From Spirochaetota bacterium (GTDB lineage Bacteria > Spirochaetota > UBA4802 > JAFGDQ01), in assembly GCA_034190085.1 (NCBI GenBank), contig JAXHTS010000049.1:1-64000 (forward strand): a stretch of DNA of 64,000 nt. Direction: 5' to 3'. Below, piece by piece: positions 2,869 to 11,020 of this stretch. A program made the translations under genes and the position numbers. The first letter of the stretch is position 1, and the number at the start of each line of letters is the position of its first letter. A model generated the notes under the pieces. That model saw only the letters and a program-made list of their open reading frames with translations. It made no database searches and was not told the origin of the DNA.

Positions 2869-5800
2869 TTATAAATTACCATTATTATCAACTTTGAGTA
2901 TTAATATATCTTGGATTGTTGTACTACTGCTTTGGTCTACAGATCCACATACAATATACCCGCCTTCTATAGTCTGCTGAACTGATCGACCAAATGCACT
3001 ACATTCTGGAATGCTATAGGTCGTTTGCCAATTCTGACTGCCATCGTCATTGAGTTTCAGCATCAAATACTCAAATTCTCCACTCAATGTTGAGTTTGTC
3101 TCTCCAACAGTTATATATCCTCCATCTGATGTCTGTTGAATCGAGTATGCTTTATCATAATTACTGTCTCCATAGATTCCTGTCCATTCATCAATCCCAT
3201 CTCCATCAAGTTTTATTATCCAAACATCAAAATTAACGGCAGTAAAAGAATTTGTTCTTCCTGCAACGATGTATCCGTTATCAGGGGAGGTTTGTGCTAT
3301 TGATTCAGCAAAGTCATTTGCATTACCACCATACACCTGACTCCATTGTTGAATGCCGATATCATTAAGTTTTATTATATAGAATTCAGCACCTCCACCT
3401 CCACTAGCCATAAAAGAAAAGGTATATCCAGCAACGATATATCCTTCATCAGAGGTCTGTTGAATTGAATTTGCATAATCACTGGTGTTGCCGCCATAGG
3501 TCTCTTCCCAGTTTTGACTACCATCAGAGTTGAGTTTTATTACCCACATATCATAATAAGTGGCACTAACATCATATTTTGAACCAGATACAACAAAACC
3601 TCCGTCAGAGGTTTGCTGAACTGATTTTGCATAGTCATTGCCAGTATCACCAAATGTTGGTGACCATTCAATAATACCATTTTCATTAAGTTTGATCACC
3701 CAGGAGTCCTGTCCTCCAGCGCCATAGGATTCAGTATATCCAGCAACAATGTAACCTCCATCAGAGGTTTGCTGAATAGATTCTGCAACGTCATCAGACG
3801 CTCCTCCATAGGTATAATCCCATTCAACAATACCATAAGGATCAAGCTTAAGTACCCAAAAGTCTTTTCCTCCAGCTCCATAAGATTCCGAATATCCAGC
3901 AACAATGTATCCACCATCAGAAGTTTGTTGAATTGAGTTTGCTACATCCCCATAGGTGCCACCATATGTAAGTTGCCATTTTATTATATCCGCAAGAAAA
4001 TCCTGGGCGCTTACATCATCATTATCAACAATAACTATAATTTCTACAGGTAAAAAATCATAACCAGTTTTAGATGGAATTACTTGGTATGTTCCATTCA
4101 TAATATCTCTGAAGGAATACTCGCCTGATGAGTTAGTTATTGTTTCCATTGTCACAGGGCCAGTAAGGGTTATTTCAACACCCTCCAATCCCGTTCCTTC
4201 AATTGAAACAGTGCCTGAAATTGATAGGGAATTTACATCATAAATCAAGTTCAGTGTCCCTACTGGATAACCAACTAGATCCTCACAGTCTATTGTTAAT
4301 GTCTTCCCGATTCCCTCTGACCATTCAGTGGTTGGGTTTATGGTTAGCGTATCATTCATATAAATTTCAGTTGACCATACACCGCTATCGCATTCAGATG
4401 TCATCGTACCCCCGATTGTAAGACTATCTGAGTCCATGGATTCACTGAAGGAAATCACAATAGCTTGTGATGTATCAATAATAAGTGAACCACTAACAGG
4501 TGACACTGTAGCAGTCGGATTTCCTCCATCCACATCATAGGTCAAGTTTATTGTGGCGACTCCATTGCCAACTAGATCCTCACAGTCTATTGTTAATGTT
4601 CTTCCTAGCCCTTTTGACCATTCAGTAGTTGGGCTTATGGTTAGCGTTTGATCAATATCTGTCCATATACCAACACCCTCAGGTGCCATCGTGCCCCCAA
4701 TTGAAAGAGAATCTACATCCATCGACTCGCTAAAGGTGATTATAATCGCATCAGATAGATTTATGATAGAACCACTATCTGGAGATGCTATTGCAGTCGG
4801 TGCGCCTGCATCAACATTATAGATTAAGTTTAAGGCTGCAACAGGATATCCTACCAGATCGTCACAGGATACTGTTAATGTCCTGCCTATCCCCTCTGTC
4901 CATACCGTACTTGGGTTAATGGTTAGGATTTTGTCATTATTTGTCCATACACTATTACACTCAGATGCCATCGTACCCCCAATTGAGAGAGAACCAATGT
5001 CCATTGATTCACTAAATGTGACCTCAATAACATCCGATACATCTATAATCGAACCACTCGGTGGCGAGCTCGTCGCAGTCGGTGCGCCTGCATCTACATT
5101 ATATGTCAAATTTAAGGTTGCGACAGGCCTGCCAACAAGATCATCACAGGATATCATTAATGTCCTTCCCAACGCTTCTGCCCATTCAGTATCTGGGCTT
5201 ATGGTTAGCGTATCGTTTATGTGGACCACAGATGACCATACTCCACCATCACTTTCAGATACTATAGTCCCTCCAATTGAGAGGGAATCTGTGTTCATCG
5301 ATTCACTGAAGGTAATCACAACAGGTTGTAATATATCTATAATTGATCCACTTAAAGGCGACTCTGTTGCAGTTGGCGCACCTGCATCTACATCATAGGT
5401 CAAATTTAAATGTGGAAGTGAATACCCAACAAGATCATCACAGTCAATTATTAGCGTCCTGCCTATTCCCTCTGTCCATTTAACATTAGGTGTAATTATA
5501 AGCCGGTCGTTATCAAATATTCCATTTGACCATGTAATTAGATAATCATCCGATGATATATCTCCACTGATCAATAGAGATTTAGTGTCCATAGATTCGC
5601 TAAAGGTAATTATTATAACCTCCGATACATCAACAATAGAGCCCGTTGCAGGAGTTTCTGTCGCGCTTGGTACGCCAGCATCTATATCATATGTCAAATT
5701 AAATTGAGTAAGTGGGAACCCAACTAGATCATCACAGTCTATTATTAGTGTTTTCCCAAGTCCCTGTGTCCATTCAGGATCAGGCGTGATCGTTAACCTA

Positions 5801-6384
5801 TCATTAGTGGATGATCTGTTTGACCATGAGACTAAATAATCATCTGCTGACATATCTCCGCTGATTGAAAGAGAACTATTGCTCATCGATTCGCTAAAGT
5901 TAATCTCAATAGTTTGTGTTGTCCCAATTAGTAGATCTGCCGGCATCACATCAATTACAGTCGGTGAGCCTGCATCAACATTATAGGTAAGATTTAATGT
6001 TTCATTTAATGGATTTGCGGCGAGATCGGAACACCTGATGATTAAAGTCCTTCCTATCCCCTCTGACCATGCGCTATTTGGGCTTATGGTTAAGGTATCG
6101 TTCTCATAAGTCGCAGATGACCATGTTCCACCATCGCTCTCTGATGCCAAATCTCCGTCTAATTCGAGTTTGTTTATATCCGCTGATTCATTGAGTGTAA
6201 TAATAATTTTTTGGTTGCAACCAATAGTTGTTCCACTCTCAGGTGAAATGGAAACAGTTGGTGGAATAGTGTCTAGTGGTGGAATAAATTGAAAGCTGCC
6301 GTTATCATCGCTACATTTTATTACACACCCAATCATAATAAAAATAACAAAATAAAACAATGGTATTTTATGGTATTTAATCAT
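2869..6384 (-). CDS. Giant lipoprotein: seven Ig-like domains, one CarboxypepD-reg-like domain, seven-repeat propeller
   Basis: The 1171-residue product starts with a signal peptide containing a lipobox-like MIGC (Cys20). Residues about 45-705 hold seven tandem Ig-like (Big_5/SbsA-type) domains of about 95 residues. Each has an ITFSESMD-type motif, a TLTISP..W.EG motif and a GRTLTI.CDDLVG motif, and ends NLTYDVDAGAP. Residues about 706-785 (SISGTVSIEGTGLEGVEIT, SGEYSFRDI) look like a carboxypeptidase-regulatory/Cna-B-like fold. Residues about 788-1171 are seven copies of a 52-55-residue unit with SIQQTSDGGYIVAG and DxWVIKLN motifs, which suggests a closed seven-bladed propeller. The protein is probably tethered to the outer membrane with the Ig stalk presenting the propeller for adhesion or glycan binding; that role is inferred. 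The Ig modules closely match those in the 20.3 kb lipoprotein. The gene is monocistronic and ends beside an IS5 remnant. Confidence 0.85.
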   Translation of the reverse strand: MIKYHKIPLFYFVIFIMIGCVIKCSDDNGSFQFIPPLDTIPPTVSISPESGTTIGCNQKIIITLNESADINKLELDGDLASESDGGTWSSATYENDTLTISPNSAWSEGIGRTLIIRCSDLAANPLNETLNLTYNVDAGSPTVIDVMPADLLIGTTQTIEINFSESMSNSSLSISGDMSADDYLVSWSNRSSTNDRLTITPDPEWTQGLGKTLIIDCDDLVGFPLTQFNLTYDIDAGVPSATETPATGSIVDVSEVIIITFSESMDTKSLLISGDISSDDYLITWSNGIFDNDRLIITPNVKWTEGIGRTLIIDCDDLVGYSLPHLNLTYDVDAGAPTATESPLSGSIIDILQPVVITFSESMNTDSLSIGGTIVSESDGGVWSSVVHINDTLTISPDTEWAEALGRTLMISCDDLVGRPVATLNLTYNVDAGAPTATSSPPSGSIIDVSDVIEVTFSESMDIGSLSIGGTMASECNSVWTNNDKILTINPSTVWTEGIGRTLTVSCDDLVGYPVAALNLIYNVDAGAPTAIASPDSGSIINLSDAIIITFSESMDVDSLSIGGTMAPEGVGIWTDIDQTLTISPTTEWSKGLGRTLTIDCEDLVGNGVATINLTYDVDGGNPTATVSPVSGSLIIDTSQAIVISFSESMDSDSLTIGGTMTSECDSGVWSTEIYMNDTLTINPTTEWSEGIGKTLTIDCEDLVGYPVGTLNLIYDVNSLSISGTVSIEGTGLEGVEITLTGPVTMETITNSSGEYSFRDIMNGTYQVIPSKTGYDFLPVEIIVIVDNDDVSAQDFLADIIKWQLTYGGTYGDVANSIQQTSDGGYIVAGYSESYGAGGKDFWVLKLDPYGIVEWDYTYGGASDDVAESIQQTSDGGYIVAGYTESYGAGGQDSWVIKLNENGIIEWSPTFGDTGNDYAKSVQQTSDGGFVVSGSKYDVSATYYDMWVIKLNSDGSQNWEETYGGNTSDYANSIQQTSDEGYIVAGYTFSFMASGGGGAEFYIIKLNDIGIQQWSQVYGGNANDFAESIAQTSPDNGYIVAGRTNSFTAVNFDVWIIKLDGDGIDEWTGIYGDSNYDKAYSIQQTSDGGYITVGETNSTLSGEFEYLMLKLNDDGSQNWQTTYSIPECSAFGRSVQQTIEGGYIVCGSVDQSSSTTIQDILILKVDNNGNL

Positions 6385-7188
6385 TTAAGCACTCCTTGAG
6401 ACAATTTTTATTGTACTTAAACTAAAAATGAAAGCCAGAGTTAATTCCCATTGAATAGCGTGCTTTGCAAAACATTAATTGTATAGATTTTAGAGGATAT
6501 ATTATCCTTGCCTCAAATAAATATATACTACTCGATATTTGTTGCACAGGTTAAGGATTGTATATAGTTGGTAAAACATCAGTTCAGCAAAGATATCGTT
6601 ATATCCTTTCCCGTGATGTATCAAACTAATTAAAAATTTTGTTCTATTAAACTAGGATAATAATTAATAAAATAAAATATTAACCAATTATCTTATAACA
6701 ATGGTATGTCATCCCTTGAATATGTGTTTTCCCCTTTAATAGGATTTGATTTATGTATGTTATTGAATACATAATTATGCTATTAGCAATAGTATTAGTA
6801 ATAGTAATAGTAATAGTAATAGTAATAGTAATAGTAATAGTAATAGTAATAGTATAATATAATATAAGAGGTGCAGCATGTAAAAATCTAAACACTTTAA
6901 AGTGTAAATGGTGTGTTTGTCAATAAAAATTTTTATATTATATAGTAACAAAAAGGATATATTTAGCAAGTAATAATTTTTGAAGTATGTGAATTGTCTA
7001 ATAATCAATAGGTAAAATATATTTGCTTTTTACAGAAAAAAGATGATTATAATATATTGAAATATGTAATAATGATTATTAGATATAGTCTTTACTTTAC
7101 AATTGTTTGATGTAATAATAAGAGCAAAGAGTTTAAATATATCTATGTTTCACGTAAAACACTATATTCAGTTATCAGGTAATTTTTT
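6385..7188. other. 805-bp AT-rich intergenic region between divergent genes
   Basis: No protein-coding gene is supported. The region separates the divergent giant lipoprotein (minus) and PrsW-fusion (plus) genes and must carry both promoters. I could not pick an unambiguous -35/-10 pair. Its main feature is the hexanucleotide repeat at 6797-6854. Simple-repeat translations (poly-Leu or Thr-Ile) across it are artefacts. Confidence 0.6.
6797..6854. repeat. (AGTAAT)n microsatellite, nine full units plus four bases
   Basis: The six-base unit AGTAAT is repeated perfectly from 6797 to 6850, followed by AGTA, with degenerate flanks (AATAGTATT before, ATAATATAAT after). It lies about 335 bp upstream of the PrsW-fusion gene and 410 bp upstream of the giant lipoprotein gene. 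Such tracts change length by slippage and can alter promoter spacing, but here it is rather far from either start. Confidence 0.9.
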
Positions 7189-9207
7189 ATGTTAATGAGC
7201 AAAATCCTTTTAGCGTTAATTCCTATACCATTATTCTATCTGATCTACCTTCGCTATTTTATTTATAAACCGGAATATGTTAAACATCTTGAATCATTCC
7301 TCTATGGTGTAGCGCTTGCTCTTCTATTAAAATTAGGTACACCATTTATATACTCACTGTTCCCCTTTACGGATTTGGCTTTGGATGGATTTCTTAAAGC
7401 AGCCTTAATTGAAAAAATCGGAGCCTTCTGTCTTATATATCTTGTACATCGGTATTATCCAAATTTTAGTATTATGGAATCTGTAGTTTCTGCTATGATG
7501 TTAGGAATCGGATTTTCATTGGTTGAGAATGTATTTTATGCAATTAATTTCGGTTCTTCTATAATAATATTGAGATTGATTGTATCAGTTCCTGTACATC
7601 TTACAACTTGCGGATTTATCGGCTATTATCTTGGTCTTAGACGATTGAGTGAGACGCCTGTATATAGAAAACAGTATATTGCTAAAGCGTTATTGATACC
7701 AATTCTCCTACATGGCATTTTTGATACGAGTCTAATCGTTGGTGGCAAAATGATCTATTTTGTCTGTCCCTTTTTGATCATCTTTGTCCTGATATTGGAG
7801 GTTATGATAGCTCGTATACATACGATTTTTCCAATGGATGTGCTGGATGCTATGAACCTCCGTTTTGAGGATTGGCTAACAATTGATAGACAACCACATT
7901 TTGAAAGATGGATACTGAATTCCATGGGTACTCAGAATACAATAAGTATCCCTTTTTTTAGATGGAAACGAGAAGCATTCACATGGGTAATGATGTTCTT
8001 CTTTATAACTGTTGCAGTAGTTATGCTATTATTTCAGGATAGTATTATGCAATTTTTGAGCTTATCGCTAAAACAAGATGAGCAATTTATTATCATGGGA
8101 TTATTCCCCACTTCCATCGGTTTAATTCTGCTGCTTGTTGGAGCAATTAATCCACAATTTTTTGAGGAGAGTGTTATACGCATACCAGTTATCTCTGATG
8201 TTGTTCTTTATAATGATACAAATCATCATATGGAAGAGACCTTTGTTACCTTTGATATTACAGCCGCGAACTGTTTCCTGAGAACCTCTGAGCCACTTGG
8301 ACTTGGAACTGAGTTTAATCTATTATTTGAATGCGCCTCCTTTGTATCACCAGAGGCAAGAGGCACAGTTGTCTGGGAGAACTTTACAAATGATCAGGCT
8401 CCAAAGGGCTCATTAATAAGGCTTACATGCCTCCCGAAGGGTTTTATTACTTTTTTAGCAAGATACTATATATTCAGGTTTACAAAAGGTATCGCATTCA
8501 ATCTGAAGATGCCAGGATTTGAGGTGATACGCAAATTTTTTATGAGACCCATTACAACAATGCAAAATGAAAAATCATTAAAATCGAATACTATAATATA
8601 TAAAGAAGAAGAAAAGGGGAATAAATTCTATTTGATTAAAAAGGGTAGAGTGCTATTCTATAAAAAAAAGAAATCTGGAGATATAATAGTAATGGATACA
8701 GCAGAGGTAGGTGAGATTTTTGGCGAAATGTCAGTGCTTGGGAATTATCCTAGGTCAGAAACCGCAGTCTGTGGAACAGATTGCCTTTTAGCAGTAGCAG
8801 AAAGGGATAATTTAGATGCCCTTATTAGGAATAATCCGGATTTTGCTCTCTCATTAATAAAAAAATTAGCGGATCGTGTAAACATGTCTGAAAAGGTTTT
8901 ATCTGAAAACATATTTACTCTGGAAAGACAGAGGAGGGAGAGTCAACAGTTGTTTCATGTTGCCATGTTATTTATACTCACTGGGCTTGGTTACAACCCT
9001 GAAGGTGATAATATTAACTTAAAACTAGACCTTGCTAAAATAGCAGGGATTATTAGAAATATTGATGATGAGGTTGCTTCCGAAATTATCAACCTTGTAA
9101 TGAGAAAACAGAGTAGTCTATTTGATGGAATGAATGATATTAGTGATGAAATATTTCAAGAACTTGAGATAATTTCTTCAAGATTTGATGTTGATATAAA
9201 TTTTTAA
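7189..9207 (+). CDS. PrsW-type membrane protease fused to PilZ-like and cyclic-nucleotide-binding domains
   Basis: This is a 672-residue fusion. Residues 1-215 are multi-spanning and carry the PrsW/CPBP-like set of conserved polar residues within membrane segments: Glu75 (ALIEKIGAF), Glu113-Asn114 (LVENVFYAIN), His137 (PVHLTT) and His175/Asp179 (LLHGIFD). Two more hydrophobic segments lie at about 265-310. Residues 325-420 resemble a PilZ domain (VTFDITAANCFLRT in place of DxSxxGxxL), but the RxxxR di-GMP motif is not evident. Residues 440-570 form a cyclic-nucleotide-binding domain with a good phosphate-binding cassette (GEIFGEMSVL, then PRSETA). A helical tail follows. The expected role is intramembrane or juxtamembrane proteolysis gated by a cytoplasmic nucleotide signal. 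ATGs at 7189 and 7195 are both possible starts, the former after AGGT. A strong terminator lies downstream. Confidence 0.85.
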   Translation: MLMSKILLALIPIPLFYLIYLRYFIYKPEYVKHLESFLYGVALALLLKLGTPFIYSLFPFTDLALDGFLKAALIEKIGAFCLIYLVHRYYPNFSIMESVVSAMMLGIGFSLVENVFYAINFGSSIIILRLIVSVPVHLTTCGFIGYYLGLRRLSETPVYRKQYIAKALLIPILLHGIFDTSLIVGGKMIYFVCPFLIIFVLILEVMIARIHTIFPMDVLDAMNLRFEDWLTIDRQPHFERWILNSMGTQNTISIPFFRWKREAFTWVMMFFFITVAVVMLLFQDSIMQFLSLSLKQDEQFIIMGLFPTSIGLILLLVGAINPQFFEESVIRIPVISDVVLYNDTNHHMEETFVTFDITAANCFLRTSEPLGLGTEFNLLFECASFVSPEARGTVVWENFTNDQAPKGSLIRLTCLPKGFITFLARYYIFRFTKGIAFNLKMPGFEVIRKFFMRPITTMQNEKSLKSNTIIYKEEEKGNKFYLIKKGRVLFYKKKKSGDIIVMDTAEVGEIFGEMSVLGNYPRSETAVCGTDCLLAVAERDNLDALIRNNPDFALSLIKKLADRVNMSEKVLSENIFTLERQRRESQQLFHVAMLFILTGLGYNPEGDNINLKLDLAKIAGIIRNIDDEVASEIINLVMRKQSSLFDGMNDISDEIFQELEIISSRFDVDINF

Positions 9208-9310: not shown

Positions 9311-9354
9311 AGTAAAGCAATAACCCGCTTATCTTAGCGGGTTATTGCTTTACT
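9311..9354. terminator. Bidirectional intrinsic terminator with a 19-bp perfect stem
   Basis: AGTAAAGCAATAACCCGCT (9311-9329) pairs exactly with 9336-9354 around a six-base loop. It sits between convergent genes ending at 9207 and 9401. The outer A/T stem supplies U-rich tails in both directions, so it should end transcription from both sides. Confidence 0.9.
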
Positions 9355-9400: not shown

Positions 9401-11020
9401 CTACTCCTTCACTCTCTTCTTATTCCACATGAATATACTGCCGAGTGTAATGAGTACTATCAACAATATCCCAGTTATGAGACCTCTGTTCCCCTTAACA
9501 GTTGCAATAAGGTATGCCGCTAGCGCTGATCTCTCTGAATCATCTATACGTTTTAGCTTTATCTTCTTAATCTGAATGTTGGTATCATATTTATTAGGTA
9601 CCCACATATCATTAGTCCATATCAGAGAAACATCAATATCCCCTCCTGTGAGATCAAGAATAGCATTGCCTTTCTTAAATTTCTTCTCATTAGCTGGGAT
9701 TGAGATTGTGGCTCCAACTCCATCCGCCTCCACATCAACCTTAAAATCAGTATAATCAGGAGAAAGTTTGCCATAGTTCTTCGCAGTTAGTATTATTCTA
9801 TATTTCCCTGATTTCATGTCGCTAAAGGAGAATCCGATGAGTTGGTTAGCCCAATAGGTGCGCACTGTATTTTTATCCCAGAACCATCTTCCCTCGATAA
9901 AGCTATACTGATTTGCATTTCTCACTAGACTCTTTCGTGACTTATTGTATGCCTTTGCATATTTTATCCTCACCTTTTTAATCTGAATATTAGCATCATA
10001 TTTCTCCTTAACATAGTAGTCATTCGACCATAGAAGGTTCAGGTCAGTGTCGCCCTCATCCAGATATACAAACATCTTATCTCGATGATAGCGATTATCA
10101 GATGCCATGATATTCATCCCGCCAACCTGCTTGCCATTGGTTTCATTCCATACTGTTATATTAAAGTGGCTATATTTTTCGGAAAGTGGTCCTTTTATAT
10201 TTTTAGCAACCATAACAATTTTATACCATCCTGCCCTTTGGTTGTCCCTGATACGCAGAAAGAGATTCTCATTGGACCAGAAGGTGTGTATACCCTTTTG
10301 ATGTTTTCCATAACCAATAACAAGTCTGGATTTTTTTATTAAGCTTCTATACTTCTTTATCTCATCTTTTATTGCCGCTACATCAACTCCAGACTCCTTT
10401 TTCCGGACTTTTAGATCCTTTATTTGAGATCTATATTTTTTTATTAAAGCTATATGTTTTGTATAGGTCTCATCATCAACCAGTTTCTGTTTTGGGGATT
10501 TATACCATCTGCCTGACGATGAATCAAGTGTTACAGTAGGTTCAGCAATCTCAGGGGTTGGGGTATCTGTAGTATCATCTCCCTTTTCACTCTCATCATC
10601 TGTTTGAGCAACATCCGTGGTATCTCCTGAATCCTCGCCTTCGCCATCGTCAGTCACTTCCGTGCCTTCGCCCGAGTCCTCTTCATCAGTATCATCCTTC
10701 GTCTCATCATCACCTGATGCGCTGTCAGTGGATTCATCAGAGTCCTTAATCTCATCACCTTCGCCATCCTTCTGTTCGTCACTTATTTCAGATTCATCTG
10801 CTTCATCTTCAGTTGTGAAGAGATCTTCCTCATCCTGGTCAACCGATGAAACATCCTGTAGATCATTATTTTCAACAATTGCGTCGTCAATGGTGATGTC
10901 TTCTGAAGTATTTTCCGGTCCCCCTTTGCCAACATTAACATAATCTGAATCTTCAGAACCGCAGTATAATCCGATAAACAACACCATTGTGATAATAGAA
11001 AAAACTTTCGCAAATCTCAT
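9401..11020 (-). CDS. Surface protein with long acidic linker, two CBM60-like domains and a C-terminal membrane anchor
   Basis: The 539-residue product has an N-terminal signal (MRFAKVFSIITMVLFIGLYC, possible lipid attachment at the Cys), a long Asp/Glu/Ser/Thr-rich region (about residues 25-165), and a basic coiled segment (about 170-235, KHIALIKKYRSQIKDLKVRK). Two repeated beta-rich domains follow at about 240-355 and 375-495. Each repeat has an AGWYKIVMVAKN/SGKYRIILTAKN strand pair and ends with WSNDYYVKEKYDANIQIKK or WTNDMWVPNKYDTNIQIKK. That ending resembles calcium-dependent xylan-binding modules (CBM60/CBM36), whose last strands carry W/F-TNDYY..DxN. A hydrophobic helix (about 510-530) and a basic tail close the protein, as in an inner-membrane stop-transfer segment. 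A strong AGGAGGT lies 9 bp before the ATG. Sugar or calcium binding is inferred. The two possible membrane attachments (lipid and C-terminal helix) are odd. Confidence 0.75.
   Translation of the reverse strand: MRFAKVFSIITMVLFIGLYCGSEDSDYVNVGKGGPENTSEDITIDDAIVENNDLQDVSSVDQDEEDLFTTEDEADESEISDEQKDGEGDEIKDSDESTDSASGDDETKDDTDEEDSGEGTEVTDDGEGEDSGDTTDVAQTDDESEKGDDTTDTPTPEIAEPTVTLDSSSGRWYKSPKQKLVDDETYTKHIALIKKYRSQIKDLKVRKKESGVDVAAIKDEIKKYRSLIKKSRLVIGYGKHQKGIHTFWSNENLFLRIRDNQRAGWYKIVMVAKNIKGPLSEKYSHFNITVWNETNGKQVGGMNIMASDNRYHRDKMFVYLDEGDTDLNLLWSNDYYVKEKYDANIQIKKVRIKYAKAYNKSRKSLVRNANQYSFIEGRWFWDKNTVRTYWANQLIGFSFSDMKSGKYRIILTAKNYGKLSPDYTDFKVDVEADGVGATISIPANEKKFKKGNAILDLTGGDIDVSLIWTNDMWVPNKYDTNIQIKKIKLKRIDDSERSALAAYLIATVKGNRGLITGILLIVLITLGSIFMWNKKRVKE

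Follow-up and report, generated by a model that had tools for sequence, protein, structure and literature searches.

What does an intramembrane protease of the PrsW type act on when it is built into one chain with a PilZ-like and a cyclic-nucleotide-binding (cNMP) domain, and what might those domains do for it? The question is raised by a gene in a window of 64,000 nucleotides (the whole stretch of spirochaete DNA analysed here), which a search of its own genome identified as the sole PrsW gene present. An earlier note, made from the letters of the DNA, had placed the protein at the start of sigma-factor release and seen in it a new signalling layout. The evidence set out below points elsewhere: the fusion is likely to be a dedicated C-terminal sorting protease, which would free tagged lipoproteins from the inner membrane while its PilZ and cNMP domains set its activity. 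Features of the locus are collected in Table 1.

Table 1. Features of the fusion gene and of the convergent candidate substrate gene, in window coordinates
Feature	Position	Strand	Basis or remarks
PrsW-PilZ-cNMP fusion gene, 672 aa	7189..9207	+	ATG start; ORF
PrsW intramembrane protease domain, residues 1-210	7189..7818	+	PF13367; E75, E113, H137, H175, D179
Two additional transmembrane helices, residues 263-316	7975..8136	+	AF2 helices 263-281/283-290, 296-316
Non-canonical PilZ-fold domain, residues 330-438, RxxxR-less	8176..8502	+	Sub-threshold TIGR02266; Foldseek
Cyclic-nucleotide-binding domain, residues 455-550	8551..8838	+	PF00027; Foldseek; Glu513, Arg522 invariant
C-terminal helical region, residues 551-672	8839..9204	+	Poorly conserved; low confidence at end
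Terminator between convergent genes, perfect 18-bp stem	9312..9353	.	Fold -34.1 kcal/mol, z -8.1
Candidate substrate gene, 539 aa	9401..11020	-	Signal peptide, acidic low-complexity region, two CBM60-like domains, C-terminal tag
C-terminal tripartite tag DDSERSALAAYLIATVKGNRGLITGILLIVLITLGSIFMWNKKRVKE	9404..9544	-	Alignments A2, A3; HMM E 4e-18
Signal peptide, lipobox-like LFIGLYC (Cys20)	10961..11020	-	By eye; Tyr at -1 atypical

The three domains that the earlier note had read from the letters were borne out by profile searches of the separate segments and by structure prediction. The Pfam PrsW-protease profile (PF13367) matches residues 59-200 with E 4.6e-18 and 65.9 bits against a cutoff of 23.5, in agreement with the five polar residues by which the domain had been flagged. 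The cNMP_binding profile (PF00027) matches residues 462-549 with E 1.1e-17 and 64.2 bits against a cutoff of 27.5. The segment between them is matched at residues 354-424 by the PilZ-like model TIGR02266 with E 1.1e-5, which is under that model's cutoff. CPBP and Mrt models in Pfam and NCBIfam gave no match to the fusion protein at E 1.

AlphaFold2 modelled the whole chain with a pTM of 0.72, and Foldseek returned cNMP domains only, among the matches listed for this model; residues 1-440, comprising the transmembrane bundle, the two further transmembrane helices and a six-strand barrel, were therefore modelled on their own and reached a pTM of 0.89. The barrel, which with a helix makes up the middle segment, is matched among solved structures by the PilZ domains of Alg44, PA0012 and MotI with probability 1.00 and TM-scores up to 0.68, and the C-terminal cNMP domain resembles cAMP-bound GlxR, CRP and Bd1971. 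Because the search with residues 1-440 returned PilZ matches but no solved relative of PrsW, the PrsW fold rests on the sequence and on the confidence of the model. On that footing, both the fold and an intact-looking nucleotide pocket, on which the earlier idea of a gated protease depended, are supported. The barrel has no RxxxR motif, as the note had also suspected; the position of DxSxxG reads DITxxN in the window protein. Control by c-di-GMP through this domain was considered and rejected, since the motifs are missing; a PilZ fold lacking the c-di-GMP residues may be a structural coupler.

Residue conservation bears on both the protease and its possible control. E75, E113, H137 and H175 are identical throughout the 57 fusion proteins that were checked; position 179 is Asp in 55 of these and Asn in 2. 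Among the motifs of PF13367, FxxxE, H and HxxxD are kept, and motif 1 (residues 75-79) keeps its first Glu and reads E-K-x-x-A or similar in 47 of 47 cNMP-bearing members, where its fifth place is small or hydrophobic, mostly Ala and never Lys or Arg. The 10 PrsW-PilZ and 3 PrsW-only proteins compared have E-E-x-x-K/R instead, so that the EK swap tracks the cNMP domain (47/47 with it versus 0/13 without it). The predicted catalytic residue of motif 1, its first Glu, is retained in the cNMP-bearing clade; as the motif there is EK..A and not EE..K, protease activity in that clade is not certain. The phosphate-cassette residues Glu513 and Arg522 of the nucleotide pocket are conserved in 47/47 proteins and the source genome encodes six class III cyclase domains, which together make control by a cyclic nucleotide reasonable. 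A second messenger would perhaps control the protease through the cNMP domain.

A survey across genomes, one of the checks that the earlier note had proposed, found the fusion architecture in 28 of the 46 genomes surveyed from its own order, and also in families f11 and f34 of the phylum; given this recurrence it is not an assembly artefact. A scan of genome contigs gave matches in Spirochaetota only. The PrsW-PilZ core without a cNMP domain occurs in some f34 and f11 genomes and also in Leptospira. The surroundings of the gene vary. Some f34 loci have a gene for an Hpt protein immediately upstream of the fusion, while other loci carry, on the downstream side, an EAL-like gene together with one for a 7TMR-DISM hybrid histidine kinase; these neighbours were recorded at L118 7620-7937 and L126 9826-13564. 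In the window, a hexanucleotide tandem repeat, (TAGTAA)x11.8, occupies 6784-6854 and precedes the start codon of PrsW by about 335 bp; its copy number could be variable. Further upstream, 2869-6384 on the minus strand encodes a probable lipoprotein of 1171 aa with six Big_5 domains, a beta-propeller-like C terminus and no C-terminal tag.

The gene convergent with the fusion, across the terminator, encodes the candidate substrate. Its product is a probable lipoprotein, judged by its N terminus, contains a Pfam match to CBM60 (E 4e-11) and is the sole tag-bearing protein found in the source genome. The tag consists of an S-x-L-x-[AG]-[YF]-[LI] motif, then a transmembrane helix, then basic residues. 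The cytoplasmic part of the tagged partner is a short basic tail only, from which no cytoplasmic factor would be released. When neighbours were compared, the product of the convergent gene next to the fusion proved to be an exported protein in several genomes. The first two families of partner ectodomain are unrelated, one being CBM60-like and the other combining a repeated domain with a LamG-like one (by eye; TafC matches), and they have the tail in common. Homologs of the partner ectodomain are confined to genomes with the fusion. Among the flanks of 60 PrsW loci, tag genes occur on either side and in both orientations, also at PrsW-PilZ loci. At one locus (G012:C2:45718-47700) a PrsW paralog with one in-frame TAG adjoins an intact tag gene.

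Tag and fusion also occur together across genomes. With a profile built from 34 tails (alignment A3), 46 genomes of the order were searched for full-length tail matches up to E 1e-5, and 393 genomes of the phylum at 1e-4, the number of candidates scored in each genome being limited in the phylum search. In the order the tail was present in 28/28 genomes with the fusion versus 0/18 without it; in the phylum the figures were 45/52 and 1/341. Most of the tails used for the profile came from loci adjacent to PrsW, so that the fair test lies in genomes that contributed no training tail. Among these the tail was found in 9/9 fusion genomes of the order versus 0/18 others, and in 16/23 versus 1/341 in the phylum; because the genomes are related, Fisher p-values overstate their independence and are indicative only. 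In five of the nine non-training genomes of the order (G021, G029, G031, G033 and G034) the tail gene and PrsW lie on different contigs, and these tails were hence found by the profile and not by neighbourhood. Seven fusion genomes gave no tag match at 1e-4, and the one tag-bearing genome without a fusion match is 78% complete.

The tag itself is constant in place and varied in what it is attached to. In every one of the 62 unique proteins the match is followed by only 0-11 further residues before the C terminus, and at least 48 of these proteins have a lipobox-like Cys; several of the others are truncated at the end of a contig or have an uncertain start. A PrsW gene lies within 6 kb of 42 of the 62 tails (cutoff about 1e-5). 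The 20 unlinked tails are all at protein C termini, most of them on exported proteins with a lipobox-like N terminus. In the 63 tails obtained when LruC of Leptospira is included, the motif positions are occupied by L in 58, A/G in 62, Y/F in 57 and L/I in 60, and the ectodomains fall into 11 unrelated clusters, with domains that include CBM60, DUF4842/LruC, FG-GAP, Big/CarboxypepD_reg and TafC/LamG-like. On a tree of PrsW, adjacency to a tail requires about ten changes and is seen among PrsW-PilZ and PrsW-PilZ-cNMP branches alike. The CTERM models of NCBIfam had no match at E 10 to six tag proteins. As a putative sorting signal the tag qualifies as CTERM-like, being a tripartite tail on unrelated exported proteins with a linked and co-occurring membrane protease.

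Roughly half of the fusion genes lack a tag gene in their vicinity. Some of these loci adjoin genes for sigma-70 region 2, STAS or SpoIIE proteins, and paralogs placed in this way may have other targets. PrsW-PilZ-cNMP paralogs without a tag neighbour were seen in loci L092, L098, L099 and L102; a STAS gene lies beside those in L092 and L099 and a SpoIIE phosphatase gene near those in L092 and L102, hinting at partner-switching control.

The PrsW-PilZ protein of Leptospira interrogans offers a case in which the destination of a tagged protein has been described. On chromosome II (PLSDB) the gene annotated as LruC domain protein is followed after 44 bp, on the same strand, by a PrsW-PilZ gene. 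The LruC precursor ends in DSELMGFLLRSMKKNAILIAILLIGAGAAVAYILKRRTLSQA, and the tail profile has a single match in the 350-kb record, on LruC, with E 8.3e-5. We equated this pair with LIC_20172 (LruC) and LIC_20173 (PrsW-PilZ) by numbering and descriptions. LruC is reported, in a study of vaccine candidates (PMC5406399), as an experimentally shown outer-membrane lipoprotein of the inner leaflet. Residence in the outer membrane is incompatible with a C-terminal helix in the inner membrane, so that loss of the tail is the straightforward interpretation. LIC_20173 was described in 2025-2026 as a PrsW with a non-canonical PilZ domain (PMC11800159, PMC12943098); two extra transmembrane helices were noted and an RsiW-like role was proposed, gene context being judged an insufficient clue for the PilZ proteins (PMC12943098). 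It shares with the fusion the PrsW-2TM-PilZ core (E 1e-47 to the fusion family) and a tag-bearing lipoprotein next door, and differs in that it has no cNMP domain and reads EE in motif 1 and HGTFN in motif 4.

We infer cleavage, its site, the direction of traffic, the ligand and the gating of the fusion protease as follows. The tagged partner would be a substrate of Sec export, mostly lipidated at its N-terminal Cys, with the C-terminal tag holding the lipoprotein in the inner membrane as a second anchor. The PrsW domain would recognize the tag and cut it at the edge of the membrane, at the S-x-L-x-A-Y-L motif or close to it; once free of its second anchor, the lipoprotein could travel to the outer membrane or the cell surface. 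The cytoplasmic PilZ-fold barrel and cNMP domain would set the activity of the protease, most likely through cAMP or cGMP. In its full form, in which a cyclic nucleotide switches a PrsW enzyme that releases doubly anchored lipoproteins to the outer membrane and so remodels the surface without new transcription, the proposal is tentative, with chances that we place a little short of even.

An alternative reading has the tagged lipoprotein as an envelope sensor or inhibitor whose transmembrane tail docks on PrsW, signals passing between the ectodomain and the cytoplasmic PilZ/cNMP domains and cleavage being absent or incidental. Strict pairing, with dedicated 1:1 partners in some genomes, would suit such an arrangement, as would the presence of signalling domains in the enzyme and the fact that the cNMP clade has lost the second Glu of motif 1. 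The remaining catalytic residues are, however, invariant; the ectodomains are too varied for a single sensor function; a single genome can hold several tag proteins per enzyme, some of them unlinked; and LruC is described as reaching the outer membrane, which a fixed anchor in the inner membrane would prevent. We regard this docking arrangement as unlikely.

Site-1 cleavage of an anti-sigma factor, with the cytoplasmic domains gating sigma release, is less probable still, although it is the established role of Bacillus subtilis PrsW, was what the earlier note had expected and has been proposed in PMC12943098 as well. The source genome does encode three zf-HC2 proteins, and a sigma-70 region 2 gene adjoins a PrsW paralog in L144 (Pfam), with a similar case in L106 (by eye). 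Near the window gene, by contrast, no sigma or anti-sigma gene was found, the linked partner has no cytoplasmic domain, and co-occurrence points to tagged lipoproteins. The fusion also scores 58.9 bits against the 225-bit cutoff of NF033739, the NCBIfam PrsW equivalog for the RsiW site-1 protease; by its sequence it is a member of the PrsW domain family that falls outside the RsiW-cleaving equivalog. (ECF-like sigma-70 region 2 genes were recorded near PrsW paralogs at L144 10079-10960 and L143 11418-11912, both by Pfam, and in L106.) Self-processing, in which PrsW would release its own C-terminal PilZ-cNMP part in the manner of toxin export, appears very improbable. It was proposed by Zhang et al. 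2012 for PrsW fused to toxin domains, in a passage that keeps the PilZ and cNMP fusions apart from the toxin ones (PMC3482391), and the PilZ and cNMP domains are cytoplasmic sensors that have been conserved together, the residues of the pocket being invariant.

If the fusion is indeed a sorting protease for tagged lipoproteins, a branch of the PrsW family gains a testable function other than anti-sigma cleavage, and spirochaetes gain a previously undescribed C-terminal tag with its likely enzyme, the tag being carried also by the Leptospira outer-membrane antigen LruC. The proposal touches the open question of how spirochaetes select lipoproteins for the outer membrane. Should the cNMP domain truly gate cleavage, a second messenger would be linked directly to protein sorting.

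The fusion by itself is not new, contrary to what the earlier note had supposed. In one sentence, Zhang et al. 2012 mention fusions of PrsW to PilZ, cyclic-nucleotide-binding, FHA and Zn-ribbon domains in several bacteria (PMC3482391); these are the same classes of fusion, and that sentence proposes no substrate, tag or sorting role. The descriptions of LIC_20173 followed. A literature search for CTERM together with PrsW found nothing, and in one on PrsW with sortase the most relevant paper drew no link between the two. The new element would be a sorting protease of the PrsW type together with a new tag, perhaps controlled by a second messenger.

Comparison with known systems places this candidate pair among several others. 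B. subtilis PrsW (YpdC) has the same domain and its four motifs, and differs in standing alone, in cutting the anti-sigma factor RsiW and in reading EExxK in motif 1, against EKxxA in the cNMP clade. Rhombosortase, which has a serine rhomboid fold, acts on the tripartite GlyGly-CTERM tag of surface proteins that are substrates of type II secretion. It is like the proposed system in pairing an intramembrane protease with a tripartite tag on surface proteins, and unlike it in fold, in motif and in the type II route of its substrates. Precedent for the proposal comes from MrtX, a glutamic intramembrane protease that cuts MYXO-CTERM tags, and from MrtJ, which pairs with a single JDVT-CTERM protein (PMC11980579). 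Both of these CPBP systems share with the fusion a Glu/His/His intramembrane protease and a tripartite C-terminal tag, and MrtJ shares the two-gene pair with a single target. In contrast to them, the fusion is an enzyme of the PrsW family that carries PilZ-like and cNMP domains, and the spirochaete tag has no invariant Cys, most of the putative substrates already having an N-terminal lipobox.
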